In this document: positions 11,407 through 52,300 of the stretch, piece after piece
Layout of the letters: the number at the start of each line of letters is the position of its first letter
Position numbering within the stretch: the first letter of the stretch is position 1
Origin: Phlebopus portentosus
Taxonomy: Eukaryota; Basidiomycota; Agaricomycetes; Boletales; Boletinellaceae
Direction: 5' to 3'
Assembly (NCBI GenBank): GCA_037892935.1
Contig: JAYXKI010000006.1
Location: forward strand, 62,001 to 126,000
DNA length: 64,000 nucleotides
Notes under the pieces: model-generated
The model's input: the letters and a program-made list of their open reading frames with translations, nothing else
Database searches by the model: none
What the model was told of the DNA's origin: nothing
Position numbers and translations under genes: made by a program

Positions 11407-12135
11407 TGAAACTCCTGTGGACGTTCTGATGCCGGACAGGGAGTATATAGTTCGAGGGGCTGCCCTAGAATACCTTCAAACGGTCAGCAGAGAATTACAC
11501 CTGAGCTAAGGGCACGAAGGAGTGGAGGGAAATAGGGATAGACAATGGAAGGGCTTGGAGAGAACCGGGGATATGAGGGAAGCGCTCGAGGAAGAATTCT
11601 GAGGGTGAACTTCTTCCGAGATCGACGGTGGCGGTGCAAAGGCTAAATCGACTCTCCGGCTCAACTGCGAGCTCTGGACTAAAGCCGACTAACCCAAGGC
11701 ACAAGAACTAAACTAACTAAGCTACGCTAGTCGAACTACCAACCCGAACGTGACTAATCGACTGTGCTAACACACTGGTAAGCGACTGCAGTCGATCTCA
11801 CTCGTAGTCTTAAGTGTCGGAATGCGGCATAACGATTCGAAACGCGATTCGATGGACGAAGGACAATTGCTGAGTGTGTCGAAATGTGATGCGAGGAATG
11901 GAGGTGCGAAACGATGACGAAAGGGGACTGAGAGAATCGAAGGATATGTGTGGGACGATGAAACTGACCGTTTCCGAACGAAACGATGCGGAATAGCACC
12001 GGGCTGGTCTTGAGGAAGCGGAGAGTGGAAAGTCAAGAGGAAAGGGGTGATATGGTGTCCTTTCCCGACGACAATAGAGAGGAGAAGGTGTTGCGAGACC
12101 AAATGCGAGCAGCACGCGGAGTAACTGAGTTACAA

Positions 12136-12162
12136 GCGAAACCGGGCGAAACGGATCGAAAC
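12136..12162 (+). promoter_or_regulatory. Three phased [GT]CGAAAC motifs in R/U5
   Basis: GCGAAAC at 12136, GCGAAAC at 12146, TCGAAAC at 12156: exactly 10 bp apart. The same trio is in the right LTR around 22570-22597. Confidence 0.6.
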
Positions 12163-12432
12163 ACGTGAGGGGGTCTTGTTTCGGGTGAGAGGAGATAGAG
12201 AAGCCTTTATACGATGACGGCGAACTATACGAACGCTCGAACGGCTCTACTGCGAAGAGAGATCACCGATCGACTGTACAGAACACGAAATGTCGTATAT
12301 TAGACTATAGAGACGAGAGAGTCCACTACGAACAAGTAGACTAGAGGTCGAGAGGCTTTGAGACGATGTGAGAACTGCAAGCTAAGCTCCCACTCAGCTC
12401 CGACTAAGCTCTCCCTCTACTACGAGAGTCGT

Positions 12433-12445
12433 GCTATATTTATAC
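12433..12445 (-). promoter_or_regulatory. LTR TATA box
   Basis: Minus strand reads GTATAAATATAGC. It is about 590 bp from the U3 end of the LTR, and on its downstream side the sense strand is nearly free of ATG. The same box is at 22868-22880 and, in A2, at 31899-31911 and 42322-42334. Confidence 0.6.
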
Positions 12446-12645
12446 TAAACGTCCAAGACTGAGCCTCCCAGCGGTCAGAGAACCTACGTCATAAAGAAAA
12501 GGGAACGCATATCGCTATCTACAAAGGAGAGGAGCACATAGGAATGGTTTAAGGGACACATAGGTCAAAAGAAACAATACTAAGCATGTCTGGAACGAGA
12601 GCATAATGAATTAAAGGGGACGCATATAGAAAGGTCAGAAAATGT

Positions 12646-12711
12646 GCGGAACCTTCGGAACCGGGTCTCTTTGAGCGGAACGAAGCGGAACTCAGGGAAA
12701 CGACTCGGAAG
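12646..12711 (+). promoter_or_regulatory. U3 phased motif array 2
   Basis: Motifs at 12646 (GCGGAAC), 12655 (TCGGAAC), 12675 (GCGGAAC), 12685 (GCGGAAC), 12695 (GGGAAAC) and 12705 (TCGGAAG). From 12655 on all lie on one 10-bp grid with a single vacant position. Conserved in the other LTRs. Confidence 0.65.
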
Positions 12712-12940
12712 GGCTCTGGCTAGCCTGACAAAGTAAGTCTGCGATGTTTAACAAAGGAGAGGGACTGAGGACGAGGTTGCAGGGTCAAATCTCTTTGTCT
12801 GGAATGCGGATCCGAGGTCCGGAGACTTGTGATCGACGCATGCAAACTCGATGCCGTGATTCTCCCGTCTTGATGGCCGATCAAAGAACGGTGCACGTGC
12901 CATCTGGACTATGGCGTTCTTGCTAAGTTCACTCGTTCGA

Positions 12941-13000
12941 GCGAAACCAGTCGAAACCGAGCGAAACCAGTCGGAACACCGCGGAACTGGTCGTAACGAC
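12941..13000 (+). promoter_or_regulatory. U3 phased motif array 1: six 10-bp units
   Basis: Sixty bases divide into six 10-mers, each starting with the motif: GCGAAACCAG, TCGAAACCGA, GCGAAACCAG, TCGGAACACC, GCGGAACTGG, TCGTAACGAC. The spacing is one helical turn, so all motifs face the same side of the DNA. It lies close to the U3 terminus of the LTR and 163 bp upstream of the accessory gene start, so it could serve both promoters. All four A-family LTRs keep it (23376-23432; 31347-31403; A2 right LTR near 41770-41826). Confidence 0.7.
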
Positions 13001-13162
13001 TCCGTACGTTCCCAAGCTTCAGACTTACTCTTCATCTCCCGGGTTCATGAAATAGTGACCATCCGCGGTCACTCCCATCTCAATCCGACGCGTGGGAGTT
13101 TCGAAGCATAACGCGTCGCGTCCAAATTTTCTTCCGCTGTCATCTCTTCTTCATTCTCCAAC

Positions 13163-14913
13163 ATGTTCACTTCCGAAGAAATCGTCGCGCTCTTGGGACC
13201 CATCAACTCCGATGACGACTGGAAGGCAGCGGTCACAAAATTCGAGGCAGACGTCGCCTTGGCCAGGTCGGCAATGGATGAACTAGACCATGGCGTCACG
13301 ACGGTAATTCTGCCGGATAAGACAAAACCAGTCGAATGGATTGCACCTACAGGTTCGATGACGGTTCGGTGGTTGACGAATCCGGTGATGGAATCTTTGA
13401 TGGATGGGTGGAAGGCAACCACGGTGCGTAAACCGCGCACTCTAATTAAGAATTTTTGTTAACGAAATTCGACAGGCACAGAAGAAAGCGTTGGAGCAAG
13501 TCCGTCCCAAAGGAATGAAAGAAGTCTGGTCGGAGACAGCGTACTCCAACTACTGCGACACAGACGCTCTCCTACGGACGCTGTACTACGATCAACGGGA
13601 ATTTTATGCCAGGATGGAGACCAAACGACGAGCTTTCTTTCGCAGACGCAGGGTTCCATTCCATCCTGCCTCGTTCGATTCGACTCGTGGGTTCTTCTTG
13701 GGCGAATCGTTCCCTCCAATGTTCCTGAAACCGCGCCCTGACATCGAAAAGGCTCTCGAGAACGTGAGAATGGAGAGCTCCAAGTTCCAACAAACGGCGA
13801 GGTTCACCGGCAACACGGACTACACGCGAGACGAAGCTGTCCGGAGTCACGTAGGTACTTCTTCTTGTCTATCATCTCCATCTAATCCTTCCTACAGCAA
13901 GCGTTCGAATATTGGGAGGATATCGAGCAACGACACCTTCGTGCAGGGCACATCCTTCGCATCGACAGGGTGAAATTGAGAACGGTCCGGCTCCTCTGGG
14001 AATACTATGGCTATTCCATCCTTCGTCGTCGGCTCTATCAACTCGTTCGTGCTCAGGAATCCGAAACGCAACAACAACAACAGCAACAACAACGATCCCA
14101 ACAAGTGCTGTCTGAACCTTTCTCTCAACCGCAACAACAACAGCAGCAACAACCAATGCTGCCTGAACCATTTCCTCCGCAACAACAACAACAGCAGCAA
14201 CATCAAATGCTGCCTCAGGACGTCGATAGTCCAATGGAGGTTGATTCCGCTCCTCTCCAGGCCGAAACTGGTGAAACGATTGAGGACGGAGAGGTCGCGG
14301 AACCGGTCGAAACGCTCGAAACCGGAGCGGAACGTTTGGAAGGGGCTAGCCGTTCTACACCCTTAACCTCACTTGAACCTACAATGCTCGAGATTGAGCT
14401 TCGCGAGAATGAAAGACAAGAAGAAGAAGAACGCGCTGCTCAACGCGCCGAAATCTCCCGGATGGCTGCCAAAATCGAGGCCAACATGCGACGACGGCTG
14501 GATGCAGGGACTCGCCGCGTTCGTGGTGTTCGGCAAGTGGTGGACTCGGACGAGGAGACTCCTGCGATTCAGGAAAGTCCTGAGAGTCCTCCTCCTGGTC
14601 ATCGGGGAGAAGACTCCATTGTCATGAGTCCAGGCGACGGCGGAATGGATATCGGTGATGTGGGAATGGAGGCGAATGAGCCGTTTGAGGCGGACGCAAG
14701 CCTTGAAGAGATTCAGGCTCTCAATACCGCGAGCAACAACAACAACAGCAACAACAACAACAACAATAGCGGTACTGCTGCTGTTCCGCACGAAACTGTC
14801 GAAATGCAAGCGAGACGCATTTCTCCGGCACGATGAGCGTCTTCTCAACCTGAGGCTGGTCCTTCTAGGATTTCGGCTAATGGTGGTGGTTCTGGAGGTG
14901 ACGACAACAATAA

Positions 14914-14944
<31 letters not shown>

Positions 14945-15460
14945 AATGGTGACGAACGATTGGGCGATGGGCGCGTTTGTCATCGGGTTCCGTGCGACCA
15001 GTGCCAGAAGCGTGGCCGTGATTGCGTGGGTCTTCCGCAGAGGACCTGCGCTCCGTGCTTGAAGCAGGCGAAGGGCTGTAGTCTAGCCATGAAGGGCAGG
15101 GCTGTAGCCGCGAAGCGTAAGGCAGCTCGGGAGGTGCGCGATCGGGAGGCAAAATGCCGGAAAGTCACGGCTCTGGCGGCCAGATCTGTGGGTGGTTGCG
15201 TCGAGCATGAGGCTCTGCAGCGGGAGGTCGGGGAATCCGAGCTGCAGTTCGTGCTGGTGCGGATGGATCACCGGGACAAGGTCCTGTCCCGGATGCTGAA
15301 CGAATTCAGCGTCCTCGTAGCGCAGGTGCACGCGGATCATCGTCTGCTGCTCGAGTTGGCTGGGGTGAAGACGGGGGAAGGTGAAGATGAGGAAGAGGAA
15401 GATAGAGGGGAAGTGGAGAGGGTTCGTCAGTCGAAGGGGAAAGGTAGGGCTCGGGAATAG
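13163..15460 (+). pseudogene. A1 accessory gene: polyglutamine protein with C-terminal Zn2Cys6-type array, one stop
   Basis: Spliced gene antisense to gag-pol: exons 13163-13423, 13476-13850 and 13898-15460, introns of 52 and 47 bp, all phase 0, about 732 codons. Residues 1-212 (exons 1-2) are a globular-looking region I do not recognise. Exon 3 then has WEYYGYSILRRRLYQLVRAQ, several Gln runs (CAA/CAG), an acidic/Arg helix-like region (near 14390-14480), Asn and Asp runs, and near the C-terminus C-X2-C-X6-C-X7-C-X2-C-X6-C (CDQCQKRGRDC ... CAPCLKQAKGC) followed by a basic segment rich in Lys/Arg. This spacing fits the fungal Zn(II)2Cys6 DNA-binding cluster, which normally sits at the N-terminus. 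The frame is broken by TGA at 14834-14836; A2 has CGA there. Probable role, by inference: nuclear regulator of the element. Confidence 0.75.
14297..14333 (+). promoter_or_regulatory. Phased motifs inside the accessory exon
   Basis: GCGGAAC 14297, TCGAAAC 14307, TCGAAAC 14316, GCGGAAC 14327 (steps 10, 9, 11). The coding frame reads VAEPVETLETGAERLE, so the repeat is not explained by a repeated peptide. Confidence 0.5.
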
Positions 15461-15906: not shown

Positions 15907-18900
15907 TTAATCGGAATTTTGGGACTCATCGTCAGGGAATTTCTCTGGCGAATCTTCTATTTCGGGTATGTCATCATCTTCGTCCGATCCAATGAGCTTG
16001 GTCACCGGAACAGTCAAATGTGAATGCGGGAAGTACGGAACCAGGCGAAACGCTGCTATTCGGAGTTTCGAAACCGCTCCATCGAGTTCGGCGACGATAT
16101 ACGAACCGCCTTGGGTGCGTCGAACTACCACGTAGGGGCCTAAATAGCGGGGTTTCATTTTACGATTGAGTTCCATCTTGATACGCGTGTTTCGCAAGAG
16201 TACGAGGCTTCCTGGCTGAAAGTCGTAGTTCTTGATTCTATGCTTCTCCACCTCGGCGAACTGCTTCGCGTATGCATGCCTTGCACTCATGACGAGTTTC
16301 GCAACGCGATCCAACTCTTCTGGACGTTTCTGGAGTTGTTTCGCACGTATTACGATGAGTTCCGACATCGTAACTGGCGAATCGAGCGGCGGTGCTAGGT
16401 ATGTTGCTTCTGCGAGGTCGAAGGGCAAAACCGCTTCGACTCCATGGGCCATGTAATACGGGGACATTCCTGTCGCTCTGTTGATCGTGATTCTTTCTGC
16501 CCAAAATACCGAGTCAGCGTGATCACTCCAACGCTTGTTATTACCGTCTGCAGCTTTAATCAAGGCTTCCTGTACATCGAAATGTCTGCGTTCGACTAAT
16601 CCATTTGCGCGTGAGTTGTATGACGAAATTCGAATGTGGTTGATGTGATACCGCGTCTTCAAGTAATCTAGCGCGGCAACGAATGGTGTGCCGTTGTCGG
16701 TAACGAGTTCGGGGCATGCTCCATATCGACACAAAAGGTTCTGGAAGATAAACTGGCCTACGGTCTTACCAGTTTCTTCTTGAAGAAGTCTAAATTCGGG
16801 ATACGCGGTTAACGAACAACGCGCATGCACGATATACCGGAATCCACTCGATTTCGGCATAACCTTCGAGTCAATATGGATGCGTTGAAAAAGAGGGGCT
16901 ACCTCCGGTACGTTTAGCGGGATAAGAATATTCTTCGTCTGGCGTATCTGGCACTCATGACAGGTGCGCACAAAATACTTCACGTCCTGTCCTAAGGACG
17001 GCCACCAAAATCTCTCCAGCAGTCGCATTCGAGTGCAGAAAATTCCTTTGTGTCCTAGATCGTCGTGAGCTTGCTTGACTAGGTCCCACCTGCGTTTCGC
17101 TTCTATTACGACTTGGTGCCGGCCGTTCCGCGCCTTTCTCCACAGACGGCCTCCCTTCACAAAGAAGTCAGCTGCGTACCTGATTAGCTTCACATAGCCA
17201 CTATCGCTAAGATTGTCTGGGCGTGTGAGATGCATGATTAGCTTCGTGACGTCATCTAAGCGGCTATCCTTCCTTTTTGCGGATTCCGTAGAAGGAAATA
17301 GGTCCTCGGTCGCTGTTTTGCTAGGTGTTCCGCCCTGTTGCGCTACTTGGTATGTCGAAACCGGCTCTTCTATCGCAAAACCGTACGTTTCGTCTACCCA
17401 GTCTTCGTACATTTCATCTGGAGGGGGGTCTTCTTCAGCTGCTCTTCGTCTGGATAATCCATCGGTACATCAGAAATCGGCTGCTGGGATGTGTCTGAGC
17501 TTGAAACTGAAGAGAAGGATACCTGCGATCCATCTGTTAATGGTTGCATTGGGCTGCAGGTCGGGATTGTTGATCATCCCCTTGATGTATGCTGCATCCA
17601 TTTCGACTACTAGATTCTGGACTCTGATGAGATACAGTCGCATCGCGTGCAATGCTCGAAATAAGCTGTATAACTCGATTTTCGGCTGTGAATACGATGC
17701 CTGGGTCTGATTCCAGTTAATAGAGCCGAAACGATTGATCCTTCGCCTTCCATCCGAGTGCTCTTGTCCTAAATACCAACCAACTCCAATAATAGACGAG
17801 TCTACCGCCAATATTACTTCGTTGTCTGACACGTAGTCGATTGCGCACAGCGCCGGGCAAATAATAACGGCTTGCTTTAGTTCGTCCATTGCGTTCTGTT
17901 CTTCGTCTGTCCACGCAAAAATCTGGTTCTTCCTTGTCATGCGGTACAACGGGCGAGCGAGTTTTGAATAATCCTTGACGAAAATTCGAAGGACTCCTAC
18001 CATTCCCAGAAATCCTCTGACTTCCGTCAGCGTTCTACATGGCGGCCAATCTCGTATCTTCTGCACTTTCAAATCGTCTGGCTCGCGTCCCTGGTACGTT
18101 AACTTGTGTCCAATGAATACCGCTGACTCCACACACGGCACCAACTTCTTCCCTGAAAACGTTCCACCTACCGCCTTCATTCGCTGCAAAATCCTGTTCA
18201 CATCGCATATATGCTCATACACGAAACGACGAATCTCGGAGTTTCCCGGTATGGTCTCGTACGAACCGTCTGGTAACTCGTATCGCGATTTCGGACCTAA
18301 ACCGGGCGCATCGTCTGCGAAAGGGTTCATAACGTGCGGAATCTCGTCCTGAAGGATAAAGGCCACGTCGTTATGCATAATCTGCAATGAATTGGTGTAT
18401 TCCATTGGTAGAACCGTCATTCGAAATGTTCCCAAGGGTGTCTGGAACGTAGTAAGATCTCATGAGTGTTCGTCAAGCTTCCTTTGGTCGAATGCAACGA
18501 ATAAATCCAACTCCGTGTAACAAGCTCGTCCTCCACTGCTCTCCGCGATCGTTTCGACGTTCGGTGGTACTGCCGAATCCTTGACCGTAACCGCATTAAG
18601 ATCCTGCAAGTTGATAATGGATCGTAATGTTTCCTTGTCTTTCTTTACCAAGCAAAACCATCTAGATCGATACGACGAATTCGACGGTTCAATAACCCCA
18701 TTGCGAATCTTCTCTCGAATAAGTTCGAGGGCCTTGTCATGAATTCCCGGGGGAATTGGAATGCTCTTGTGCTGCCACGGTATATGCGGTATCGTGGGAA
18801 TGCGTATCGGGTCGAAATACGTCAGATCGAGTGTTCCGCGTTTGGATTCGGTCCATGCTAACGCTTCTCCCTGCAACATAATCAGATTCTTCACTAATAA

Positions 18901-19349
18901 CCTCTCCGCCGGCCACAGAAAGGTATTCTTGTCGATCTTCATTGCTTCCATCCTTTCGGCAGTTACACGACCCGTGGGTTCGAACGGCTTCGGTACAATT
19001 GGCATCTCGGGCATCCCTCTCAACGGATCCGAATGCTGCCTTCGTACGATCCTGTATTCTTCTGGAAGGACTCCCGGGATCGGCCTGACTTTCTGCGCTA
19101 CTCGTTTGTAAGCCATTACCGCCGCGTCTTCTTCTTCTGGGGTTTCTAAAACACATGAACAATATGACCGTTCTTCTTTGTCAGTAGTATAGCAATTTTT
19201 GTTTAATAAATAAGGCAATCGTTGGTTGAAAAGAGATGGGATCATGTGTGAGATAAATTCAAAATCATAAGAAAATACCTGAACCGGCAATTGGTTACTA
19301 CCATTCTCGTCTCGCCGATTTCTCTCAATCAGTTCCTCGACGCTTGCGG
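15907..19349 (-). pseudogene. pol: A1 pol: reverse transcriptase, RNase H, integrase (two stops)
   Basis: Reads in the -1 frame relative to gag. RT: ELDLFVAFDQRKLD, then FADDAPGLGPKS as the YxDD box. RNase H: VILAVDSSIIGVGWYLGQE and HAMRLYLIRVQNLVVEMDAAYIKGMI. Integrase: HDDLGHKG ... CHECQIRQ zinc finger, catalytic D (HIDSKVMP), D (VTDNGTPF) and E (NGLVERRHFD), then the GPY/F-type module (KPRYLGPYVVV); no chromodomain. Stops TGA at 18462-18460 (after DEHS) and TGA at 17472-17470 (after AADF); A2 reads CGA and CGG at these places. The last part, 17469-15907, is open. So this copy cannot make full Pol without readthrough, but parts are well preserved. Confidence 0.9.
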
Positions 19350-21380
19350 AAAACCCTTTGGAAGTGGTCCTCGCGCGATCGTTCGAATTCCGGTGGCCAC
19401 TTTGCTTTGCTTTCTGCGATCGTTCGGGTCCGTTAAGGTGATATGTTGGTCACCTGATGTGTAATCCTTTGTTTCGCACTCTGTAATAGTGAAAAACGGT
19501 CTCCCCAACAAAGCCTGGAAGGGAGCGTTCAGAACGACTTGCACTTGGAGCGAAACGTTAATCCCGGCTATCATGAACTTCGCGTTAGAGATCATGCCAA
19601 TGGTAGATGACCTAGCTGCGTCTGCTGTCTCGAGGATCATTCCTTTGTCAGGGGATAGGGGTATCTGAAGCTTCTCCCATACGTCTTCGCGGAGCAGACA
19701 CACCACGGCTCCCTGGTCAAGCACGCATTCGACTTCCAGGGTGTCTTCAATCAACGCGCTAACGGTCCTGAGAGGCATGGATGCCTCTGTGGCAACGCCT
19801 TGTCCACTGAGCGCCAGTATTTCCTCCGTCGAAAGCATTTCGCCTGTTTCGACTTGTTCCGACGCGAAACGCCCAACTTGTAATGTAAGTGAATCATCTA
19901 CGTCCTCACCATATTTGACTTCAGCCGCGTTGTATCTCTTCGCCGTCGTCAGCTCCTTCATCTGTTTCCTAACGTCCGGGGCGATTGAGAGGAGTTCACG
20001 TTGGCTGATGGTGATAGGGGTATCGAGAGTATGAGTCAGAACGTTGGAGACTGCGCTCGAGTCTTCTATTGGTACAACGTATTTATACTGGGGTTGTGAT
20101 TTTCTGGTAATGTCGTCCTGCTGTGGTGACTGGAGTGACCTTGTCGAGGGCCGCGCGCCACTCGGTGGCGCGGGCTGCGGTTTCGCCTGCGCCTTCTTAT
20201 GAGGCTGAACTCTAGGGATCTCTACGCCATCGGGCTTCGTTCTTTGTCCACCAGCTGCCTTCTTCTTCGCCTCGTTAATCAAAATCTCCAAATGTTCGAT
20301 GTCGTAATTTTCCTGCTCGTCCTGATCTTCTTCGTCGTGACCATATGCGTAGGCTGGACCAGCTTGATGGCTATATACGGGTGCGACCGACTCGACCATT
20401 CCTACTGTGTGCGTTGCCGGAGCTTTAGCGTGAAAGCTATCGATTCGTTCTTTGAGATTGTTCCCCGGTAGCGACCTTGTAATGAGACCGCCGTTCGGCA
20501 ACACAATCCTTCCATCCGGGCTCCTGATGCACTTTCCGGCTTGGATATACTCGAGAACCTTCGTACACGATCGAATATAGTGTCCCGCTTCGCCGCAGAA
20601 GTTGCAAACTGGGTTTCGCAGAGTTTCGCTACGTTCCGCCCCTGGTCGATGCGGAACGTTCCCTTTGCTCAGGGCATCGAGCATAACCTGAAAACTCTTC
20701 AACGTATCCATTACCTTGGCCAAATCCACTTCTTCCTTCTTTACGATACTTGTCAAAGCTTCTCCGGTAGCTGGGGGTGGAAAGTTACTGCCGAAACTGC
20801 CCACAATCTTTCCTCCCAGCACGAAATTCGAATGTTCGAGCACGTCCTTAATCTTGTAAGGCGTAGACGAATCGTGGTCTGGTAGCTTGATCTCGATACG
20901 ACAAATGAGCGCCTCTCTAAGGTCTCCTGTAATTCCCATCAGGAACATCTCGTCAGCTTGGGACTCCAAGATCTTTCCGTTCATTATAAGATACTTAGAG
21001 CGCCTGACGAATTCTCGATGATATTCGCCTAGGTCTTCTCGGTTCTTGATCCCTTTCTTTGCCCGTTCTACGACCAAATGCTCCAGTTCTCCCTTGGAGT
21101 AGCGTTTCCCTGCCGTGAGACTCGGGTATAGAGCTATAATCTCTCTCTTCACCGTCTCAACATCAGGGTTCGGGTCGTTAATCTCGTCGGTAGTCTCCCA
21201 AAGTTCCGCGACGTCGGTCTTCGCATAGTACAAGAACTTTCGGACGTGATCTCTATCGTTCCACGTGGCCTGTCTTGCGATTTCTGCAACGTCTTCGAAG
21301 AACCTAGGGAGTTCCTTTGGTTCTGAGCCGTCAAACGTTGGGGCACGTTTGTCCCCACGCGAGGGCGGTTGGTACGCCAT
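19329..21380 (-). CDS. gag: A1 gag-protease
   Basis: Open frame; the first in-frame ATG is 21380-21378 (MAYQPPSRGD). The frame is also open upstream, without any ATG, through 21722 and into the LTR, and that part reads like a Ser/Pro-rich Gag N-terminus, so initiation at a non-AUG codon is possible. Capsid region FDGSEPKELPRFFEDVAEIA, zinc knuckle CNFCGEAGHYIRSC, then a pepsin-type protease with ECVLDQGAVVCLL and LLGRPFF. The active-site triplet is DQG instead of the usual DSG/DTG; A2 has the same, so it is not a decay mutation of one copy. Gag packages the RNA; the protease would mature Gag-Pol. A -1 slippery site lies 7 codons before the stop. Confidence 0.88.
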   Translation of the reverse strand: MAYQPPSRGDKRAPTFDGSEPKELPRFFEDVAEIARQATWNDRDHVRKFLYYAKTDVAELWETTDEINDPNPDVETVKREIIALYPSLTAGKRYSKGELEHLVVERAKKGIKNREDLGEYHREFVRRSKYLIMNGKILESQADEMFLMGITGDLREALICRIEIKLPDHDSSTPYKIKDVLEHSNFVLGGKIVGSFGSNFPPPATGEALTSIVKKEEVDLAKVMDTLKSFQVMLDALSKGNVPHRPGAERSETLRNPVCNFCGEAGHYIRSCTKVLEYIQAGKCIRSPDGRIVLPNGGLITRSLPGNNLKERIDSFHAKAPATHTVGMVESVAPVYSHQAGPAYAYGHDEEDQDEQENYDIEHLEILINEAKKKAAGGQRTKPDGVEIPRVQPHKKAQAKPQPAPPSGARPSTRSLQSPQQDDITRKSQPQYKYVVPIEDSSAVSNVLTHTLDTPITISQRELLSIAPDVRKQMKELTTAKRYNAAEVKYGEDVDDSLTLQVGRFASEQVETGEMLSTEEILALSGQGVATEASMPLRTVSALIEDTLEVECVLDQGAVVCLLREDVWEKLQIPLSPDKGMILETADAARSSTIGMISNAKFMIAGINVSLQVQVVLNAPFQALLGRPFFTITECETKDYTSGDQHITLTDPNDRRKQSKVATGIRTIARGPLPKGFPQASRN
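19350..19356 (-). promoter_or_regulatory. A1 -1 ribosomal frameshift heptamer GGGTTTT
   Basis: In gag phase it reads G GGT TTT, a canonical X XXY YYZ site, followed 19 bases later by the gag TGA. Shifting -1 enters the pol frame, which is open across the gag stop. The same heptamer and phase are in A2 at 35423-35429. Confidence 0.65.
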
Positions 21381-21821
21381 TGCGGTTTGTCGATTTGTAA
21401 GTTGTTGTAATACGTTAGCGTTAGCAGACAGACGAGCTATTATCGCTGCGTTGCTGGCTAAGATCTGTTGAGTTCCGGTAGGTAGTTGGTAATTGGTAGG
21501 CGGGCTAGCTGGTCTGTTCGGCGAGCCTGGGGTGGAAGCTGGCACAGATGAGAGGTTGGGGAGTTCTGAATCGGCGATGGTAGATGGGGAATGATCTAGG
21601 GAATCGGTGTTGGAAGGAATGGCGCTATCGGATTGTCGCAAGGGTGTTTCGCTGTGTTCCGCATTTTCCGCAGCGGAACGTATGTTGCGATTGACAATCC
21701 TAGGCCTTCGAGTCGGCGGCAAAACCTGATGTTCTACAGGGACTCGAGCGGATTGGCTACGTGTAACTCGTCTGCTAGACGAATTTGGCGGGGTATTCGT
21801 AATGGTTGGACAGTGAAATCC

Positions 21822-21839
21822 CCCTCGCCGTGGGCTCCA
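21822..21839 (-). other. A1 primer-binding site
   Basis: Two bases after the 5' LTR the minus strand reads TGGAGCCCACGGCGAGGG, starting TGG as expected for pairing with the CCA end of a tRNA. A2 has the identical sequence at 32940-32957. The tRNA is not identified. Confidence 0.55.
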
Positions 21840-21841
21840 CT

Positions 21842-23469
21842 TGAAACTCCTGTGGACGTTCTGATGCCGGACAGGGAGTATATAGTTCGAGGGGCTGCCC
21901 TAGAATACCTTCAAACGGTCAGCAGAGAATTACACCCGAGCTAAGGGCACGAAGGAGTGGAGGGAAATAGGGATAGACAATGGAAGGGCTTGGAGAGAAC
22001 CGGGGATATGAGGGAAGCGCTCGAGGAAGAATTCTGAGGGTGAACTTCTTCCGAGATCGACGGTGGCGGTGCAAAGGCTAAATCGACTCTCCGGCTCAAC
22101 TGCGAGCTCTGGACTAAAGCCGACTAACCCAAGGCACAAGAACTAAACTAACTAAGCTACGCTAGTCGAACCACCAACCCGAACGTGACTAATCAACTGT
22201 GCTAACACACTGGTAAGCGACTGCAGTCGATCTCACTCGTAGTCTTAAGTGTCGGAACGTGGCGTAACGATTCGAAACGCGATTCGATGGACGAAGGACA
22301 ATTGCTGAGTGTGTCGAAATGTGATGCGAGGAATGGAGGTGCGAAACGATGATGGAAGGGGACTGAGAGAATCGAAGGATATGTGTGGGACGATGAAACC
22401 GACCGTTTCCGAACGAAACGATGCGGAATAGCACCAGGCTGGTCTTGAGGAAGCGGAGAGTGGAAAGTCAAGAGGAAAGGGGTGATATGGTGTCCTTTCC
22501 CGACGACAATGGAGAGGAGAAGGTGTTGCGAGACCAAATGCGAGCGGCACGTGGAGTAACTGAGTTACGAGCGAAACCGGGCGAAACGGATCGAAACATG
22601 TGAGGGGGTCTTGTTTCGGGTGAGAGGAGATAGAGAAGCCTTTATACGATGACGGCAAACTATACGAATGCTCGAACGGCTCTACTGCGAAGAGAGATCA
22701 CCGATCGACTGTACAGAACACGAAATGTCGTATATTAGACTATAGAGACGAGAGAGTCCACTACAAACAAGTAGACTAGAGGTCGAGAGGCTTTGAGACG
22801 ATGTGAGAACTGCAAGCTAAGCTCCCACTCAGCTCCGACTAAGCTCTCCCTCTACTACGAGAGTCGTGCTATATTTATACTAAACGTCCAAGACTGAGCC
22901 TCCCAGCGGTCAGAGAACCTACGTCATAAAGAAAAGGGAACGCATATCGCTATCTACAAAGGAGAGGAGCGCATAGGAATGGTTTAAGGGACACATAGGT
23001 CAAAAGAAACAATACTAAGCATGTCTGGAACGAGAGCATAATGAATTAAAGGGGACGCATATAGAAAGGTCAGAAAATGTGCGGAACCTTCGGAACCGGG
23101 TCTCTTTGAGCGGAACGAAGCGGAACTCGGGGAAACGACTCGGAAGGGCTCTGGCTAGCCTGACAAAGTAAGTCTGCGATGTTTAACAAAGGAGAGGGAC
23201 TGAGGACGAGGTTGCAGGGTCAAATCTCTTTGTCTGGAATGCAGATCCGAGGTCCGGAGACTTGTGATCGACGCGTGCAAACTCGATGCCGTGATTCTCC
23301 CGTCTTGATGGCCGATCAAAGAACGGTGCACGTGCCATCTGGACTATGGCGTTCTTGCTAAGTTCACTCGTTCGAGCGAAACCAGTCGAAACCGAGCGAA
23401 ACCAGTCGGAACACCGTGGAACTGGTCGTAACGACTCCGTACGTTCCCAAGCTTCAGACTTACTCTTCA
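21842..23469 (-). repeat. A1 5' LTR (right)
   Basis: 1628 bp copy of 11407-13034. TATA at 22880-22868; phased array 1 at 23376-23432. One motif (GTGGAAC at 23416) has lost its CG. Confidence 0.93.
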
Positions 23470-31309: not shown

Positions 31310-32937
31310 TGAAGAGTAAGTCTGAAGCTTGGGAACGTACGGAGTCATTACGACCAGTTCCGTGGTGTTCCGACTGGTTTCGCTCAGTTTCGACTGGTTT
31401 CGATCGAACGAGTAGACTTAGCAAGAACGCCATAGTCCAGATGGCACGTGCACCATTCTTTGATCGGCCATCAAGACGGGAGAATCATGGCATCGAGTTT
31501 GCACGCGTCGATCACAAGTCTCCGGACCTCGGATCCGCATTCCAGACAAAGAGATTTGACCCTGCAACCTCATCCTCAGTCCCTCTCCTTTGTTAAACAT
31601 CGCAGACTTACTTTGTCAGGCTAGCCAGAGCCCTTCTGAGTCATTTCCCCGAGTTCCGCTTTGTTCCGCTCAAAGAGACCCGGTTCCGAAGGTTTCGCAC
31701 GTATTCTGACCTTTCTATATGCGTCCCCTTTAATCCATTATGCTCTTGTTCCAGACATGCTTAGTATTGTTCCTTTTGACCTATGTGTCCCTTAAAAAAT
31801 TCATATGCGCTCCTCTCCTTTGTAGATAGCGATATGCGTTCCCTTTTCTTTATGACGTAGGTTCTCTGACCGCTGGGAGGCTCAGTCTTGGACATATAGT
31901 ATAAATATAGCACGACTCTCGTAGTAGAGGGACAGCTTAGTCGGAGCTTAGTGGGAGCTTAGCTTGCAGTTCTCACATCGTCTCAAAGCCTCTCGACCTC
32001 TAGTCTACTTGTTCGTAGTGGACTCTCTCATCTCTATAGTCTAATATATGATATTACGTGTTCTGTACAGTCGATCGGTGATCTCTCTTCACAGTAGAGC
32101 CGTTCGTGCGTTCGTATAGTTTGCTGTCATCGTATAAAGGCTTCTCTATCTTCTCTCACCCGAACCAAAACCTCCTTACGTGTTCCAAACTGTTTCACCC
32201 AGTTTCGCTCGTAACCCAGTTACTCTGCGTGCTGCTCGCATTTGGTCTCGCAACACCTTCTCCTCTCCTTTGTCATCGGGAAAGGACACCATATCACCCC
32301 TTTCCTCTTGACTTTCCACTCTCCGCTTCCTCAAGACCAGCCCGGTGCTATTCCGCATCGTTTCGATCGGAAACGGTCGGTTTCATCGTCCCACACATAT
32401 CTGTCGATTCTCTCAGTCCCCTTCCATCATCGTTTTGCACCTCCATCTCTCGCATCACATTTTGACACACTCAGCAATTGTCCTTCGTCCATCGAATCGC
32501 ATTTCAAACCGTTACACCGCATTCCGACACTTTAGACTACGAGTGAGATCGGCTGCAGTCGCTTACCAGTGTGTTAGCACAGTCGATTAGTCACGTTCGG
32601 GTTGGTGGTTCGACTAGCGTAGCTTAGTTAAATTAGTTCTTGTGTCTTGGGTTAGTCGGCTTTAGTCCAGAGCTCGCAGCTGAGCCGGAGAGTCGATTTA
32701 GCCTTTGCACCGCCACCATCGATCTCGGGAGAAGCCTACCCTCGGAATTCCTCCTCGAGCGCTTCCCTCATATCCCTGGTTCTCACCAAGCCCTTCCATT
32801 GTATATCCCTATTTCCCTCCACTCCTTCGTGCCCTTAGCTCGGGTGTAACTCTCTGCTGACCGCTTGAAGGTATTCTAGGACAGCCCCTCGAACTATACA
32901 CTCCCTGTCCGGCATCAGAATGTCCACAGGAGTTTCA
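31310..32937 (+). repeat. A2 5' LTR
   Basis: TGAAGAGTAAG to GGAGTTTCA, 1628 bp. Phased array 1 at 31347-31403 (ATTACGA, GTTCCGT, GTTCCGA, GTTTCGC, GTTTCGA, GTTTCGA at 10-bp steps); array 2 at 31653, 31663 and 31683; TATA 31899-31911. CpG decay has created sense-strand ATGs (such as 32047 and 32919) that A1 lacks. Confidence 0.92.
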
Positions 32938-33056
32938 AGTGGAGCCCACGGCGAGGGGGATTTCACTGTCTAACCATTACGAATACCCCGCCAAATTCGT
33001 CTAGCAGACGAGTTACACGTAGCCAATCCGCTCGAGTCCCTGTAGAACATCAGGTT

Positions 33057-39303: not shown

Positions 39304-41604
39304 CTATTCCCGAGCCCTACCTTTCCCCTTCGACTGACGAACCCTCTCCACTTCCCCTCTATCTTCCTCTTCCTCGTCTTCACCTTCCCCCGTCTTCACC
39401 CCAGCCAACTCGAGCAGCAGACGATGATCCGCGTGCGCCTGCGCTATGAGGACGCTGAATTCGTTCAGCATCCGGGACAGGACCTTGTCCTGGTGATCCA
39501 TCCGCGCCAGCATGAACTGCAGCTCAGATTCCCCAACCTCCCGCTGCAGAGCTTCATGCTCGACGTGACCACCCACTGATCTGGCCACCAGAGCCGTGAC
39601 TTTCTGGCGTTTTGCTTCCCGATTGCGCGCCTCCCGAGCTGCCTTACGCTTTGTGGCTACAGCCCTGCCCTTCGTGGCTAGACTACAGCCCTTCGCCTGC
39701 TTCAAGCACGGAGCGCAGGTCCTCTGCAGAAGACCCACGCAATCACGGCCACGCTTCTGACACTGGTTGCACGGAACCTGATGACGAACGTGCCCATCGC
39801 CCAATCGTTCGTCACCGTTGTCGTTGTCGTTGTCGTTGTCGTCGTCATTATCGTTGTCATCACCTCCAGAACCACCACCATTAGCCGGAATCCTAGAAGG
39901 ACCAGCCTCAGGTTGAGAAGACGCTCGTCGTGCCGGAGAAACACGTCTCGCTTGCATTTCGACAGTTTCGCGCGGAACAGCAGCAGTACCGCTATTGTTG
40001 TTGTTGTTGTTGCTGTTGTTGTTGCTCGTAGTATTGAGAGCCTGAATCTCTTCAAGGCTTGCGTCCGCCTCAAACGGCTCATTCGCCTCCATTCCCACAT
40101 CACCGATATCCATTCCTCCGTCGCCTGGACTCATGACAACGGAGTCTTCTCCCCGGTGACCAGGAGGAGGACTCTCAGGACTTTTCTAAATCACAGAAGT
40201 CTCCTCGTCCGAGTCCACCACTTGCCAAACACCACGAACGCGGCGAGTCCCTGCATCCAGCCGTCGTCGCATGTTGGCCTCGATTTTGGCAGCCATCCGG
40301 GAGATTTCGGCGCGTTGAGCAGCGTGTTCTTCTTCTTCTCATCTTTCACTCTCGCGAAGCTCAATCTCGAGCATTGTAGGTTCGAGTGAGGTTAAGGGTG
40401 TAGAACGGCTAGCCCCTTCCAAACGTTCCGCTCCAGTTTCAAGCGTTTCGACCGGTTCCGCGACCTCTCCGTCCTCAATCATTTTGCCAGTTTCGACCTG
40501 GAGAGGAGCGGAATCAACCTCCATTGGACTATCGACGTCCTGAGGCAGCATTTGATGTTGCTGCTGTTGTTGTTGTTGCGGAGGAAATTGTTCAGGCAAC
40601 ATTGGTTGTTGCTGCTGTTGTTGTTGCGATTGAGGAAGAGGTTGAGAAGGTTCAGACAGCACTTGTTGGGATCGTTGTTGTTGCTGTTGTTGTTGTTGCG
40701 TTTCGGATTCCTGAGCACGGACGAGTTGACAGAGCCGACGACAAAGGATGGAATAGCTGTAGTATTCCCAGAGGAGCCGGACCGTTCTCAATTTCACCCT
40801 GTTGATGCAAAGGATGTGCCCTGCACGAAGGTGTCATTGCTTGATATCCTCCCAATATTCGAACGCTTGCTGTAGGAAGGATTAGATGGAGATGATAGAC
40901 AAGAAGAAGTACCTACGTGACTCCAGACAGCTTCGTCTCGCGTGTAGTCCGTGTTGCCGGTGAACCTCGCCGTTTGTTGGAACTTGGAGCTCTCCACTCT
41001 CACGTTCTCGAGAGCCTTTTCGATGTCAGGGTGCAGTTTCAGGAACATTGGAGGGAACGATTCGCCCAAGAAGAACCCACGAGTCGAATCGAACGAGGCA
41101 GGATGGAATGGAACCCTGCGTCTGCAGAAGAAAGCTCGTCATTTGGTCTCCATCCTGGCATACAATTCCCGTCGATCGTAGTACAGCGTCCATAGGAGAG
41201 TGTCCGTGTCGCAGTAGTTGGAGTACGCCGTCTCTGACCAGACTTCTTTCGTTCCTTTGGGACGGACTTGCTCCAACGCTTCCTTCCGTGCCTGTCAAAT
41301 TTCGTTAACAAAAATTCTTGATTAGAGTGCGCGGTTTACGCACCGTGGTTGCCTTCCACCCATCCATCAAAGATTCCATCACCGGATTCGTCAACCACCG
41401 AACTGTCATCGAACCTGTAGGCGCGATCCATTCGACCGGTTTTGTCTTATCCGGCAGAATTACCGTCGTGACGCCATGGTCTAGTTCATCCATTGCCGAC
41501 CTGGCCAAGGTGACGTCTGCCTCGAATTTCACGACTGCTGCCTTCCAGTCGTCATCGGAGTTGATGGGTCCCAAGAGCGCGACAATTTCTTCAGAAGTGA
41601 ACAT
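39304..41604 (-). pseudogene. A2 accessory gene: Zn2Cys6-type protein, three stops
   Basis: Antisense to gag-pol. Exons 41604-41344, 41291-40917 and 40869-39304, introns 52 and 47 bp, as in A1. Stops: TGA 41142-41140, TGA 40341-40339, TAG 40188-40186. The codon that is a stop in A1 (14834) is CGA here. The last 276 codons (40131-39304) are open and contain CNQCQKRGRDC ... CAPCLKQAKGC with the basic tail; the cysteines are all kept. Gln, Asn and Asp runs differ in length between the copies. Confidence 0.75.
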
Positions 41605-41732
41605 GTTGGAGAATGAAGAAGAGATGACAGTGGAAGAAAATTTGGACGCAACGCGTTATGCTTCGAAACTCCCACGCGTCGGATTGAGATGGGAGTGACT
41701 GCGGACGGTCACTATTTCATGAACCCGGGAGA

Positions 41733-47230: not shown

Positions 47231-48884
47231 ATGGCGCCGACGATTCTCAGCATCAGCAGCAGCAGCGGCAGCGACAGCAGCAGCAACAACAGCAGGGAGG
47301 GGTCGGAGGCTCCCTCCGACCAGATGGAGGTGGACGCCGGGGCGGCGACGGGGGCTCCTGCCGCGGGCGGGATGTCGCGGGCCCCCAGCGGGCAAGAGGT
47401 CCCGCCGGAGTCGCAGGGGGAGATGGAGGAGGAGGGTGGGGAGGGGGGGGAGGGGGGGGAAGAACTGGACGCGGCCGTGTGGGCGGCCATTACGGCGGTG
47501 AGGGGGTGGATCGAGCGGGCCTGAAACGATGAGGGGCCCGCTGCCGATGAGCTCGATGGGCTCTTGGTAAATTTGCGTTCCCTTGATAATAACCGTGTGA
47601 GCTGACGATCTGGTTTACTTTTTCAGAAGGGGCTTGGGGAGCGCTTCCCCGCGCTATCCGACGACGCGAGGGCTGAAAAGCCCGAATATTATTGCACGGG
47701 GAGGTGGTTGGTGAACCGGGCAACGGTGGTGCGGATGGCCGCCGGGGAGGCTAAGGACGCCGCCGAGGCGTTGGACAAGGCTGCCCAGTCGGAGGTGAAT
47801 CGCCTCCGACGCGTCGCGGAGAGGCTGGCCGAGCGCCGGGAGGAGGAGGCTCGTGAGGAGGCGAAGCGGAGCGCGGTGAAGGTGGCCGAGGAGGCAAAAG
47901 CCTCCTTCCTCAAGACGCTCGCCACCCTGCGAGTTGGGGGCCCGGAGGTCGTCGAGGCCTTCTGTAGGTCCTCAGGGCGCAATGAGGCGGGGAACCTGGT
48001 AAGTCGTTGTCTTGAATTTTGTTTTTTACTGTCTCTGATAATATCTTCTTAGGTCGCGGCGCCTAAAACGAGCACCAAAGCGAAGGTGCAGGCACGTCCC
48101 GCGGCCAGGCCGGCGACGGGAAAGACGATTACTCTTCCTGGGTTGTTGATCCCTGGTCTTGAGGTGGCAGGTTCGTCCAGCGAGACGCTCAAGAGGGAGA
48201 GTGGTCGAGTGACGCGAGGGGGACGTTCAGGGACAGTCATGGGAAAGACCATTACTCTTGAGGTTGAGTCTGATGAGGGGTCAACGCGAGCGAAACGGTC
48301 GAGTGGAAAGGAGGTATATGTCGATGTGTGTTTTATGTCCTGGATCTTATTCTTCACTGACATGTTTCGTTTCTAGGTGCCTCCCCTTCCGAAGCGCGTA
48401 CGTGAGCCGGTGGTCGAGCCGCCAGCGAAACGAGCAAGAGTGCTGGGAGCGGCGGCCTCGGGTGGGGGAAGGGCGAAAGAGGAGGCGACAGGAAGAAGGG
48501 ACGGGGCGGTGAGTGCTGTCTTGAATTTTGTTCTCGACACTCTCTGACTATAATATTCAGAGGGAGGAGGGGGGTTGGGAGTTCGAGAGGGTGGGGCGGC
48601 TCCCCAGGGGTCAGAGCCACCGCCTCCTCGAGTTCGTGTCGCCGGGGTGCGAGCGGTGCATCGGGTGTGGGGAGATGTGCACGAGGCGCCCGCCGGCGCT
48701 CCTGTGCCAGGCGTGCCGGGTATCGCACCATCGGTGTGATATCTTGGAGTCGGACGTGACCTTCCTGGCGCAGCAGGAGGTCCTCGCTCTCCGCCGGCAG
48801 CTGGAGGGGATGGAGTCGACGTTGGCGGGAGAGAGTGCGGGTGGGGGGGTGGAGGAAAAGGCCCAGGGTGAACGCCGTGGATAG
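47231..48884 (+). CDS. C accessory gene: spliced protein with C-terminal Zn2Cys6-type array, antisense to pol
   Basis: Five exons: 47231-47497 (or to 47566), 47627-47998, 48053-48313, 48377-48508, 48561-48884; all later introns 52-63 bp. Exon 1 is Ser-rich then Gly/Glu-rich. Exon 2 has a long Ala/Glu/Arg helix (DAAEALDKAAQSEVNRLRRV, AERLAERREEEAREEAKRSA), likely coiled coil. Exons 3-4 carry basic patches (PPLPKRVREP, PPAKRARV), nuclear-localisation-like. The last exon has C-X2-C-X6-C-X8-C-X2-C-X6-C (CERCIGCGEMC ... CQACRVSHHRC), the Zn(II)2Cys6 spacing, and then a short helix. If the first intron uses the usual-size donor at 47567 (60 bp), an in-frame TGA at 47522-47524 remains (CGA expected); the donor GTGAGG at 47498 (129 bp) removes it. 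So the gene may be intact. Shares layout, not sequence, with the A accessory gene. Confidence 0.65.
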
Positions 48885-49323: not shown

Positions 49324-52300
49324 TCATAAGTTGGATTCGGCATCTAGGTCATCCGCCGCGGTCTCTTGTGCTAAGTTGTCGAGTTCCGGCGTGGATTTCT
49401 GAGTGAGGTCTTCGACTGAGTCGATGATTCGAGTGCGTGCGTGGTAGGGGATAACTCTGAATGCTGCGTAACGAAGTGCTGAAATGGCGCCGTTTGCTTC
49501 GGCGAGAACGTAGGATCCTCCTTTGGTTTGCCGCACGACAATCATGGGCCCTAGGTACTTCGGCTTTGTCTTCCTGTTCAGCTCGTTTTCGATCTGGGAG
49601 TTCCGGACCAGCACAAGTGAGCCGGGGGCGAAATTGTAATCTTTAATTGTTGCGGCGTGGGTTTTCTCGAAGTCCTGTATGGATTTGAAACGCCCCTGGA
49701 TGACGGATTCCTTGACTCGTTGGAGGTCCTCGGGACGTTTCTGGAGTGCCCTTGCTCTCGCCGCGATGAGTTGTGCGTTGGACATCTTGGAGGTGACCGC
49801 CGGCGAGATGTACGTCTGTTCGGCGAGGTCGAAGGGGAGTACTGGTTCGACGCCGTGGGCCATAAAGTATGGGCTATAGCCTGTGCGGCGTTGGATCGTG
49901 ATTCGTTCGGCCCAAATGGCGTGGTATATATGCTGGGACCACTTGTCTGGGCTTGCGTCGGCGAGCTTCATTAGGGTTTCTCTAAGGTCCCGGTGTCGCC
50001 GCTCAATGATTCCGTTGGCTCTTGAGTTGTACGGCGAGATTCGAATGTGCTGGACATTGTATTTGGCGAGAAGGTGGGGTAGGTCCTTGGAGAATGAGGC
50101 GCCGTTGTCGGTTACGATCTCCTCAACTCGTCCCCATCTTGACAAGATATCTTCAAAAACGAAGCGTGCTATCGAGGCGGCGTTATCTTTGCGCAGCGTT
50201 TGGAATTCGGGGTATCCGGTGAGGGAGTCTCGGGCCTGAACGATATACTTGAATCTGCTGGAGGGCGGCATTAACATGACGTCTATATGCACCCTGGAGA
50301 ATAGCGGCGTGGGTGTCGGGCTTTGCGGCGTGGTATATATTTTCGTAAACTGCCTCGTTTGGCATCGGTGACAGGTTCTGATATACCATTTGATGTCCTG
50401 ATGCATTCCTGGCCACCAGAATCGGTCTTGAATCGTTGTTCTGACAGAGAAGAAGCCTTTGTGGCCGAGTTCATCGTGGGCAGTTCTGATAATGGAAATT
50501 CGGCGTTCCGGCGGAATAACGAGTGCGGCGTGACCTTTGTCGTTCTTTCTGTAGAGTTCGCCGTGCTGTAGGAAGAAACGAGTGGCTCGGCGTACGAACT
50601 GTTTGAATTGAGCGTCTGAAAGATCGGTGGGGCGGGATGGGGCAGCGAGAAATTTCTTGATACAATCGAGGTCTTTGAATCCTTTTTGGGAGGCTTTGTG
50701 ATCGGGGAGTTGTACGGGTTCGCTGTTTGGGGTATAGGCCGTGTCAGAAAGGTCTTGGTTTAGGAAGGAGTATTGATGGTCGATCCATTCTTCGAAGCCT
50801 TCGTCTCGCGGCGGATCAGTTTGTGCGGCGCCGCGGCGTGATAGGCCGTCTGGGCCGAGGTGTTTGGGTGCCGGCGTATGAATGATCGTGAAATTGAAAA
50901 GTAAGATGCCGGCGATCCATCTATTGATAGTGGCGTTGGGTTGGAGGTCTGGGTTGTTAATCATGCCTTTAATATAGCTGGCGTCGACTTCGACGAAAAA
51001 GTGATCGATGCCGACGAGGTATATGCGCGCCTCATATAGAGCTCTGAAGAGGCCGAAGAGTTCTAGCTTCGCCTGGGAGTAGTTTCGTTCTCTGTTGTTC
51101 CAGGTTCCGGACATGAAACGGGATGGGACCCTTTCGCCGTTTTCGCCGAGCTGTAACAAGATGGCGCCGTAGCCATAAACGGAGGAGTCTACACAGAAAT
51201 GAACAGGTTGTCCTGACTCGTAGTCAATAGAACGAATGGCGCCGGAGGATGCTATGGCGTGTTTTAGTAGATCCATAGATCGGCGGGCGTCTTCGTCGAA
51301 TAGGAAGGGCTGGTCTTTGCAGAGTAGTTTGTTGAGACCGGCGGAATGTCTGGCGTAGTTCTTCACGAAGTGTCTGAGGACGCCAGCCGTACCTAAGAAT
51401 GCCCGAACATCATGGACATCCCGCGGCGGCGGCCAATCCATTATCGCCTTGACCCTGGATGCGTCTGGGACTCGGCCGGCGTAATTACAGGTGTGTCCTA
51501 CAATGACTGCTTCTGGTGCGGCGATGATGAGTTTCTTACCCGAGACAGTGGCGCCGACTACTTTGAGGCGTTGGAGGACGCGGTTGACATCGTTGAGATG
51601 TTCCCAGATGAAGCGGCAGATGTTCGGGTTCCCCGGAATGGTTTCGTAGTTTCCGGCGGCGAGCTCGTATCGGGATTTAGGCCCTTTTACAGGAATATTG
51701 TCGATGTATGGGATACAGACGTGGGGTATCTCATCTTTGAGTACGAAGGTGACGTCGGCGTGCATAATTTGTTGCGAGTTGGTGTATTTCATAGGAATCG
51801 ACGTGAGGCGAAATGCGCCGAGAGGTGTTTGGAATGTTGTGAGGTCGCGGGATCATACGTCGAGCTTTCTCTGGTCGAAGGCAACGAATAGATCGAGTGT
51901 GGTGTAGCAGGCATGGCCGCCGAAGGTCTCGGCGATGTGTTCTGTGGGGTAAGGGACGGAGGGGTCGCGTATGGAGACTTTGTTGAGTGGCTGGAGGTCG
52001 TGTACAAGCCGAAGGGATTTTCCATCCTTTTTAACGACGCAGAACCATTGGGAGCGGTAAGAGGAATTGGACGGCTCGTAGACACCGGAGTTAATTTTGT
52101 CTTTGATTATGCGAACCACTTCGTTGAAGATGCCCGGCGGAATAGGGATGTTTTTCATTACCCATGGCGTATGGTCGACAGTAGGAATTAGAACCGGCGC
52201 GAAGTATTGATAGTCGAGGGAGCCCTTTTCTGTCTCGTCCCAAGCTAGGCCGTCTTCATGTTGTAGAAGGGTCCAGTAGGCGAGGTTCTTTTCTTCCTCA

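Follow-up and report, generated by a model that had tools for sequence, protein, structure and literature searches.

We analyzed a 64,000-nucleotide window of the Phlebopus portentosus genome (contig JAYXKI010000006.1, positions 62,001 to 126,000; C6:62001-126000) and searched the 38.4-Mb assembly to which it belongs; all genome-wide numbers of matches given below are lower bounds. The window contains two copies of a Ty3/gypsy retrotransposon family, here family A, namely A1 (11407-23469, with gag-pol on the minus strand) and A2 (31310-43186), and each copy harbors a gene on the strand opposite to gag-pol, between pol and the 3' long terminal repeat (LTR), with its ATG in A1 129 nt from the 3' LTR. 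An earlier reading of the window (hereafter, the original prediction) described a three-exon gene with the same borders in A1 and A2 and a C-terminal Zn2Cys6-type cysteine array, and took the product to be the element's own transcription regulator or anti-silencing factor. The observation is confirmed and the interpretation is partly supported, as detailed below.

A spliced gene antisense to gag-pol

The exons and introns were located in both copies:

13163..13423, plus strand: exon 1 of the A1 antisense gene (87 codons, from translation; borders common to all 20 analyzed copies)
13424..13475, plus strand: intron 1 (52 nt, GTGCGT..ACAG; GT..AG in 20 of 20 analyzed copies)
13476..13850, plus strand: exon 2 (125 codons)
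13851..13897, plus strand: intron 2 (47 nt, GTAGGT..ACAG; GT..AG in 19 of 20 copies, the 5' end in L054 being AT)
13898..15460, plus strand: exon 3 (one in-frame stop in A1, at 14834-14836)
39304..41604, minus strand: A2 antisense gene (exon borders as in A1; four in-frame stops)

The analyzed copies comprise A1, A2 and the 18 loci that remain from 20 of the best-scoring ones (L039-L058) after removal of the partial L039 and L042. Although both window copies are interrupted (A1 by a single stop, at codon 525 after splicing; A2 by four), intact copies exist in the genome: 12 of the 20, with L054 counted among them despite its intron 2 without GT, read stop-free into a protein of 723-747 residues, a share that is biased upward because the loci were taken from the best-scoring ones. 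Introns can persist in this gene because reverse transcription uses RNA of the other strand as its template, and a genome search for spliced exon 1-exon 2 junctions of the patterns of family A and of the related family B described below, allowing up to 3 mismatches, returned 0 matches. One candidate processed retrocopy, L060, with an A-run after AATAAA and an altered upstream flank, was rejected: the element sequence runs past the A-run and the introns are retained. The antisense promoter is probably located in or beside the 3' LTR, for which the short distance from the ATG to the LTR is suggestive only. To judge from the shared reading frame and splice borders, this is a genuine, conserved, spliced accessory gene.

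The closest proteins are annotated as hypothetical and come from Sanghuangporus sanghuang (91-96% identity), S. weigelae (78%) and S. baumii (63%), matches by which the host would very probably be a Sanghuangporus, a wood-decay mushroom; in the full-length S. weigelae gene model P0004 (the 78% match), both splice junctions are the same as in family A. The protein searches found only 5 Sanghuangporus proteins each, using a method that needs shared 5-residue words and may miss distant relatives. Across the 12 stop-free A copies, the ratio of replacement to synonymous polymorphism (pN/pS) is 0.21: the 137 variants include 72 synonymous and 65 replacement ones, with 44+-5 synonymous variants expected when base and CpG (cytosine-guanine dinucleotide) context are matched, and none of the 2000 simulations reached 72. 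The absence of stop variants from this set is uninformative because the copies were chosen as stop-free. The variants are mainly C>T and G>A, which account for 88 of the 127 sites with two states (direction set by the majority base). Purifying selection acts on the antisense protein. We therefore consider it highly improbable that the antisense transcript itself is what matters, via double-stranded RNA or promoter interference, with the protein incidental: retroelement antisense transcripts can act as RNA, according to the accessible text of one study (PMC7264820), but here the protein is under selection and all six cysteines of its cluster are kept in 29 of the 29 matched A loci (the context pattern itself being matched in 29 of 30).

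The six-cysteine cluster

The array is present in the last exon of both window copies:

14993..15079, plus strand: six-cysteine cluster CX2CX6CX7CX2CX6C of A1, Zn2Cys6-like (pattern scan)
15080..15360, plus strand: basic helix, then a long predicted helix, possibly a coiled coil (structure model, helices 38-72 and 89-130)
39685..39771, minus strand: six-cysteine cluster CX2CX6CX7CX2CX6C of A2

The general cysteine pattern had 0 occurrences in 40 first-order Markov windows. Zn(II)2Cys6 domains (PF00172) have the spacing CX2CX6CX5-12CX2CX6-8C, which accommodates the cluster of family A as well as those of families B (CX2CX6CX7CX2CX7C) and C (CX2CX6CX8CX2CX6C; see below). The cluster starts near residue 575 of 731 in P0004 and is thus C-terminal, unlike the N-terminal one of Gal4, a location that is usual but not strictly defining for Zn(II)2Cys6 proteins. 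All 4 matches at E<=10 of an A+B profile against PDB, and all 9 Foldseek matches at E<=10, are Zn2Cys6 factors, none of them significant, and hhalign against host Zn2Cys6 domains aligned all six cysteines (E 0.0013, for this one comparison). By its spacing, together with these weak profile and fold matches, the cluster resembles Zn2Cys6 domains. The full-length fold model has low confidence, and secondary structure alone was taken from it. A match of protein P0003 to TFIIA (PF03153, E 3e-7) was discarded as low-complexity, being under the Pfam cut-off (31.1 vs 36.2 bits) and covering a Gln/Asn/Asp-rich stretch; the remaining Pfam matches of the antisense protein are all under the cut-off.

Families B and C and the association with DUF4100

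The original prediction treated the gene as a feature of family A, which proved too narrow. When the C-terminal 207 residues of the A1 protein served as query, 94 genome matches were obtained, splitting by identity into 68 of family A and 26 diverged ones. The latter belong to family B, which has about 20 near-full last exons, seven of these at 100% identity and full score to the family B query (itself one of the seven). The B antisense gene, as seen in L059 and two more aligned copies, has three exons, with borders placed by eye, and a C-terminal cluster. Within the window itself, a scan for the cysteine spacing yielded a third case, antisense to another gag-pol and here called family C, the last exon of which has 33 genome matches plus one fragment:

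47232..48884, plus strand: family C antisense gene (several introns; start, borders and stop by eye)
48648..48737, plus strand: family C cluster CX2CX6CX8CX2CX6C (pattern scan)
49324..55283, minus strand: family C gag-pol (DUF4100, protease, RNase H and integrase matches)

The Pfam domain DUF4100 is found in the Gag of A and C. Across the genome, a cluster of the A, B or C type lies on the opposite strand no more than 8 kb downstream of 104 of the 125 DUF4100 hits (A 50, C 30, B 24); 4 hits have a same-strand cluster and 17 have none. This comparison covered 68 A, 38 B (five shorter ones left out) and 33 of the 34 C matches, and three of the 125 DUF4100 hits are under the Pfam cut-off. The antisense gene is not peculiar to family A; it belongs to a DUF4100-type Ty3/gypsy clade. 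The term DUF4100 occurs in none of the papers that our literature search covered.

The A and B clusters are 36-38% identical, and apart from the cysteines that of C has little in common with them (by eye). Between A and B, the last exon of the antisense gene is about 30% identical and gag 52% (404 of 782 aligned residues), so the antisense gene seems to evolve faster than gag.

Several further observations concern these families. The C antisense gene apparently has more introns than those of A and B; its window copy carries a stop in the first coding stretch, where L067 and L068 have none. Beside it, at 46282-46633, lies a tandem repeat of about 145 bp, and self-comparison of 43000-60000 revealed no LTR pair for family C. 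The 17 DUF4100 hits with no cluster of any of the three families in the 8 kb downstream (e.g., C18:28237-28629 and C15:140044-140436) may be decayed copies or further families. One family B copy is seemingly a nested insertion, the surrounding DNA resembling integrase-coding sequence of a different element (L059 minus strand, from 4501 to about 3900; by eye).

Family-specific words in element DNA

Each family is enriched in a word of its own, GCGRAAC in A, GCGSAAC/TGCGCAA in B and CGGCG in C, and every word contains CpG. Zn2Cys6 factors favor CGG, and AlcR and Pho7 can use single half-sites. An unbiased ranking of 7-mers, microsatellite-like words aside, yielded GCGAAAC and GCGGAAC for A, TGCGCAA, GCGCAAC and GCGGAAC for B, and words with CGGCG or CGCCG for C, versus the GAAGAAG type at the top, followed by CTCAACC with 7, for a control gypsy element in the window (57222-63487; zinc knuckle, Retrotrans_gag and reverse transcriptase, with no DUF4100 match in the frames scanned). 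CGRAAC occurs 81 times within 11407-23469 (A1); its density per kb, with one LTR counted, is 6.2 in A1 and 5.0 in A2, compared with 1.1 in the control gypsy and 1.2 in host loci. A general enrichment of CGG in the LTR was rejected as the explanation: CGG/CCG is near expectation (A, 51 vs 49.2; B, 43 vs 50.2), and only the longer words are enriched.

The excess extends to coding DNA, where synonymous-codon shuffles within gag and pol served as the null. GCGRAAC in A1 occurs 12 times in gag (1.8+-1.2 in the shuffles) and 8 times in pol (2.5+-1.4); TGCGCAA in B, 6 times in gag (0.4) and 9 times in pol (1.4); and CGGCG in C, 36 times in gag (16.0+-3.6) and 44 times in pol (14.5+-3.0). The words are largely specific to their families: CGGCG shows no excess over the shuffles in A and B, nor does CGRAAC in C gag (453 of 500 shuffles reach the observed number); CGRAAC in C pol occurs 6 times versus 3.1 expected (31 of 500), and GCGRAAC is mildly raised in B (31 of 500 shuffles reach the observed number in gag and 22 of 500 in pol). 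Within gag and pol, every reading frame and either strand can contain the words; in the A1 LTR, 15 of the 16 CGRAAC copies are on one strand. In the alignment of A and B gag, just 4 site pairs (16 A and 19 B sites) coincide within one column, and therefore most sites were gained or lost separately. The sequences indicate that A and B have related clusters and share the core GCGNAAC, and that C has another cluster and another word.

Ten-bp phasing of the words

In family A, many of the words form regularly spaced arrays:

12942..12987, plus strand: first CGRAAC array in the LTR, five words spaced by 10 bp (located upstream both of the antisense ATG, by 176-221 bp, and of the sense TATA box)
12647..12691, plus strand: second CGRAAC array in the LTR (steps 9, 20, 10)
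12137..12162, plus strand: third CGRAAC array in the LTR (three words at 10-bp steps)
14298..14333, plus strand: CGRAAC array in exon 3 (steps 10, 9, 11)
20613..20638, minus strand: CGRAAC array in gag (three words at 10-bp steps)

Same-strand spacings of CGRAAC in A1 (one LTR counted) are 10 bp in 14 cases, 20 bp in 7 and 30 bp in 5. Pairs at 9-11 bp number 8 in the A1 LTR (0.37 expected), 10 in the rest of A1 (0.41), 5 in A2 outside the LTR (0.30) and 8 in B gag-pol (0.37), and for each of these four regions none of the 2000 random placements reaches the observed count; the gene and LTR of B contain 2 such pairs versus 0.30 expected (63 of 2000 placements). Phasing was not found in family C (2 pairs at 9-11 bp vs 1.08 expected; 585 of 2000 placements). 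Genome-wide, CGRAAC pairs at 10 bp number 1,164, versus 54 for the reversed pattern, with no excess at 13 bp (22 vs 34) or 15 bp (37 vs 54), and B-type pairs at 10 bp number 395 versus 28, by a pattern that also takes in A-type CGGAAC pairs; all these pair counts are inflated by element copy number. Ten bp is about one turn of the DNA helix, and therefore the words face one side, as would be expected of half-sites at which protein molecules bind next to one another.

The distribution of the arrays bears on a simpler possibility, namely that the antisense protein is a plain regulator of the LTR promoter (activator or autorepressor), for which only the LTR arrays matter, the words in gag, pol and the antisense gene being by-products. 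The densest same-orientation arrays are indeed those of the A1 LTR, where they flank the sense TATA box, and it is there that the 10-bp comb appears without any prior choice of motif: in the autocorrelation of 5-mers, lags 10 and 20 stand out (18 each, mean 3.0). For the gene and LTR of B, lags 10, 20 and 30 are raised (18, 20 and 18; mean 7.7) but so are 9, 12 and 15, and none of A1 gag-pol, the A1 gene, B gag-pol or C has a clean 10-bp comb that exceeds the three-base rhythm of coding DNA. Phasing outside the LTR thus rests on the motif-based test, because the motif-free one gives a clear comb in the A1 LTR alone, and this result counts against a simple account of the words. Nevertheless, we regard a pure promoter regulator as rather unlikely, given that the coding words exceed the synonymous-codon shuffles in gag and pol of both A and B, that phasing extends to B gag-pol and to A1 beyond its LTR, and that the A and B gag sites mostly arose or moved separately.

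Layout of the elements

The elements that carry these words have the following parts:

11407..13034, minus strand: A1 3' LTR (1,628 bp, TG..CA)
21842..23469, minus strand: A1 5' LTR (23 of 1,628 positions unlike the 3' LTR)
19329..21899, minus strand: A1 gag frame (zinc knuckle, DUF4100 and protease matches; 856 codons stop-to-stop)
15907..19449, minus strand: A1 pol frame (RNase H and integrase matches; two in-frame stops in A1)
31310..32937, plus strand: A2 5' LTR (the A2 3' LTR, 41733-43186, is truncated)
12437..12444, minus strand: probable TATA box of the sense (gag-pol) promoter, TATAAATA (with a counterpart in the B LTR)
13035..13072, no strand assigned: LTR-adjacent stretch (polypurine side) common to A and B (by eye; contains a dyad)

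The A1 LTRs, 1,628 bp each with 23 differences, have TG..CA termini and are flanked by the target site duplication TCGG; a 300-bp LTR length was superseded by this longer match. The LTRs and the Pfam matches to protease, RNase H and integrase, in this order, place the element in Ty3/gypsy, with a weak reverse transcriptase match in the A1 piece (E 0.22). In A1, gag and pol share 121 nt (19329-19449) read in different frames, which suggests a frameshift between them. The dyad by the LTR reads GTGACC-N6-GGTCAC in A (13055-13072) and GTGACT-N6-AGTCAC in B (L059 minus strand, near 2555), such that both arms have changed as a pair (by eye).

Proposed function of the antisense protein

The observations to be explained are the gene, the selection on it, its association with DUF4100, the word enrichment and the phasing in A and B. 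The explanation that we favor, and consider somewhat more probable than its negation, is that the antisense protein is a sequence-specific regulator or anti-silencing protein for the element's own DNA. In the series of steps that we infer, the gene would be transcribed from the antisense strand, an orientation that would let it retain introns, and the C-terminal Zn2Cys6-like cluster, basic helix and long helix would recognize the dispersed family-specific motif (GCGRAAC in A). Multiple protein molecules bound along one face of the DNA would tag the very element that encodes them, and in an element so tagged the LTR promoter would be activated and/or silencing (CpG methylation, heterochromatin) would be kept off. 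On the sense strand, TATAAATA is preceded by two of the LTR arrays, one of which is close to the antisense start, and this would provide a place for a shared control region. A role against methylation is plausible because the variants are mostly C>T/G>A, the pattern expected from CpG methylation, and a CpG is part of every word. This is the sense in which the functional part of the original prediction stands: the conserved gene, the family-specific words and the 10-bp phasing in A and B fit a self-directed DNA-binding factor, with Pfam and fold support below threshold.

Apart from the motif-free autocorrelation, several results weigh against this proposal. The spacing fits the Zn(II)2Cys6 identity assumed in the original prediction, but the C-terminal position is not the usual one, PF00172 scores fall below the cut-off of 21 bits (11.6 and 12.4 bits for A types and 7.2 for B, on short pieces), longer pieces of the antisense protein have no PF00172 match at E<=1, and a single-sequence PDB search returned only RNA-binding protein 40. 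In 21 LTRs, motif columns are not significantly more conserved than others (5/59 vs 190/1329 variable, p 0.25); the raw variant count per base is lower at non-CpG motif positions (17/1223 vs 889/27877), in a count that includes variants shared by descent. Tandem duplication may have been the source of the arrays and is compatible with the random-placement null. Finally, the indirect link between protein and word, along with the sub-threshold Zn2Cys6 assignment, would suit a host protein (e.g., a defense or chromatin factor) that binds the arrays, with the antisense protein employed otherwise, for example, in nucleic-acid chaperoning or integration targeting. We deem this improbable: a single word would be the expectation for a host factor, whereas the words vary by family and track the antisense gene (related clusters and words in A and B, another cluster and another word in C), and the one control gypsy examined shows no enrichment of the A, B or C words.

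A broader form of the self-recognition proposal, which we put forward tentatively and hold to be possible rather than probable, is that the clade encodes its own coat or anti-silencing protein, the whole element DNA, coding sequence included, having been rebuilt as a scaffold of half-sites that, in two families, are in helical phase. As the families diverge, the protein would change together with its word, each family tending only itself, as a fungal retrotransposon counterpart, of separate origin, to the VANC proteins of plants.

Comparison with known systems

The original prediction's statement that Ty3/gypsy elements normally lack such a gene needs qualification. According to the accessible text of two studies (PMC11963269, PMC7264820), plant Retand/Grande elements have an antisense gene, aORF-3R, between pol and the 3' LTR in all Retand clusters studied, 97% with a TRP28 domain (PF04195), for which DNA binding is predicted and a regulatory role has been proposed; the role of antisense genes in this position is stated there as unknown. 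The likeness lies in the location and in retention by most copies (A1 and A2; 104 of the 125 DUF4100 hits). Unlike Retand, the present elements have a fungal host, a Zn2Cys6-like C-terminal cluster, introns and phased cognate-like arrays (arrays of this kind go unmentioned in those texts), and Pfam scans of the A and B antisense proteins gave no match to TRP28.

The Gal4-type regulators (Gal4, PPR1, HAP1, Pho7, AlcR) share the six-cysteine spacing, the basic residues and the following helix, and fill the weak profile and fold match lists; here, unlike in these factors, the cluster is C-terminal and under the Pfam cut-off, is encoded on the antisense strand of a retrotransposon, and has candidate sites head-to-tail at 10 bp. 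HBZ of human T-cell leukemia virus type 1 (HTLV-1), as far as the sources available describe it, is likewise a regulator of DNA-binding type encoded by a spliced antisense gene read from the 3' LTR. It differs in being a bZIP protein of a human retrovirus, and in the present elements an LTR promoter is only predicted; we know of no phased arrays for HBZ.

Fungal DNA transposons with TET/JBP enzymes are thought to escape methylation, and in the available text no retrotransposon was found to carry one (PMC12730594). Among the matches listed in our literature search (titles and abstract starts; few subscription papers), none reports such an antisense gene or such arrays in fungi.

By analogy, the nearest system in mechanism would be VANC of the Arabidopsis VANDAL elements, with the Retand antisense genes offering a like arrangement. 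VANC, an anti-silencing protein, is likewise encoded by a transposable element and linked to a short, dense, family-specific motif, with motif and protein differing between families (PMC5735166): in the accessible parts of the reports, VANC21 binds YAGTATTAY, a motif that VANDAL21 has at high density and in one orientation, and other motifs are present in the targets of VANC6 (PMC5735166, PMC10398659). VANDAL is a plant DNA transposon whose AT-rich motif is mainly in noncoding tandem repeats, again from the accessible text (PMC5735166), whereas here we deal with an LTR retrotransposon, CpG words, coding regions as well and 10-bp phasing in A and B, with binding predicted from sequence. The present gene pairs a domain of DNA-binding type with a concrete candidate site, and the three families, with their different predicted words, make the pairing directly testable. 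Should the proposal be correct, coding sequence carries a selected protein-binding code, and sequence-specific self-recognition by transposons has evolved in a retrotransposon and in fungi, besides plant DNA transposons.

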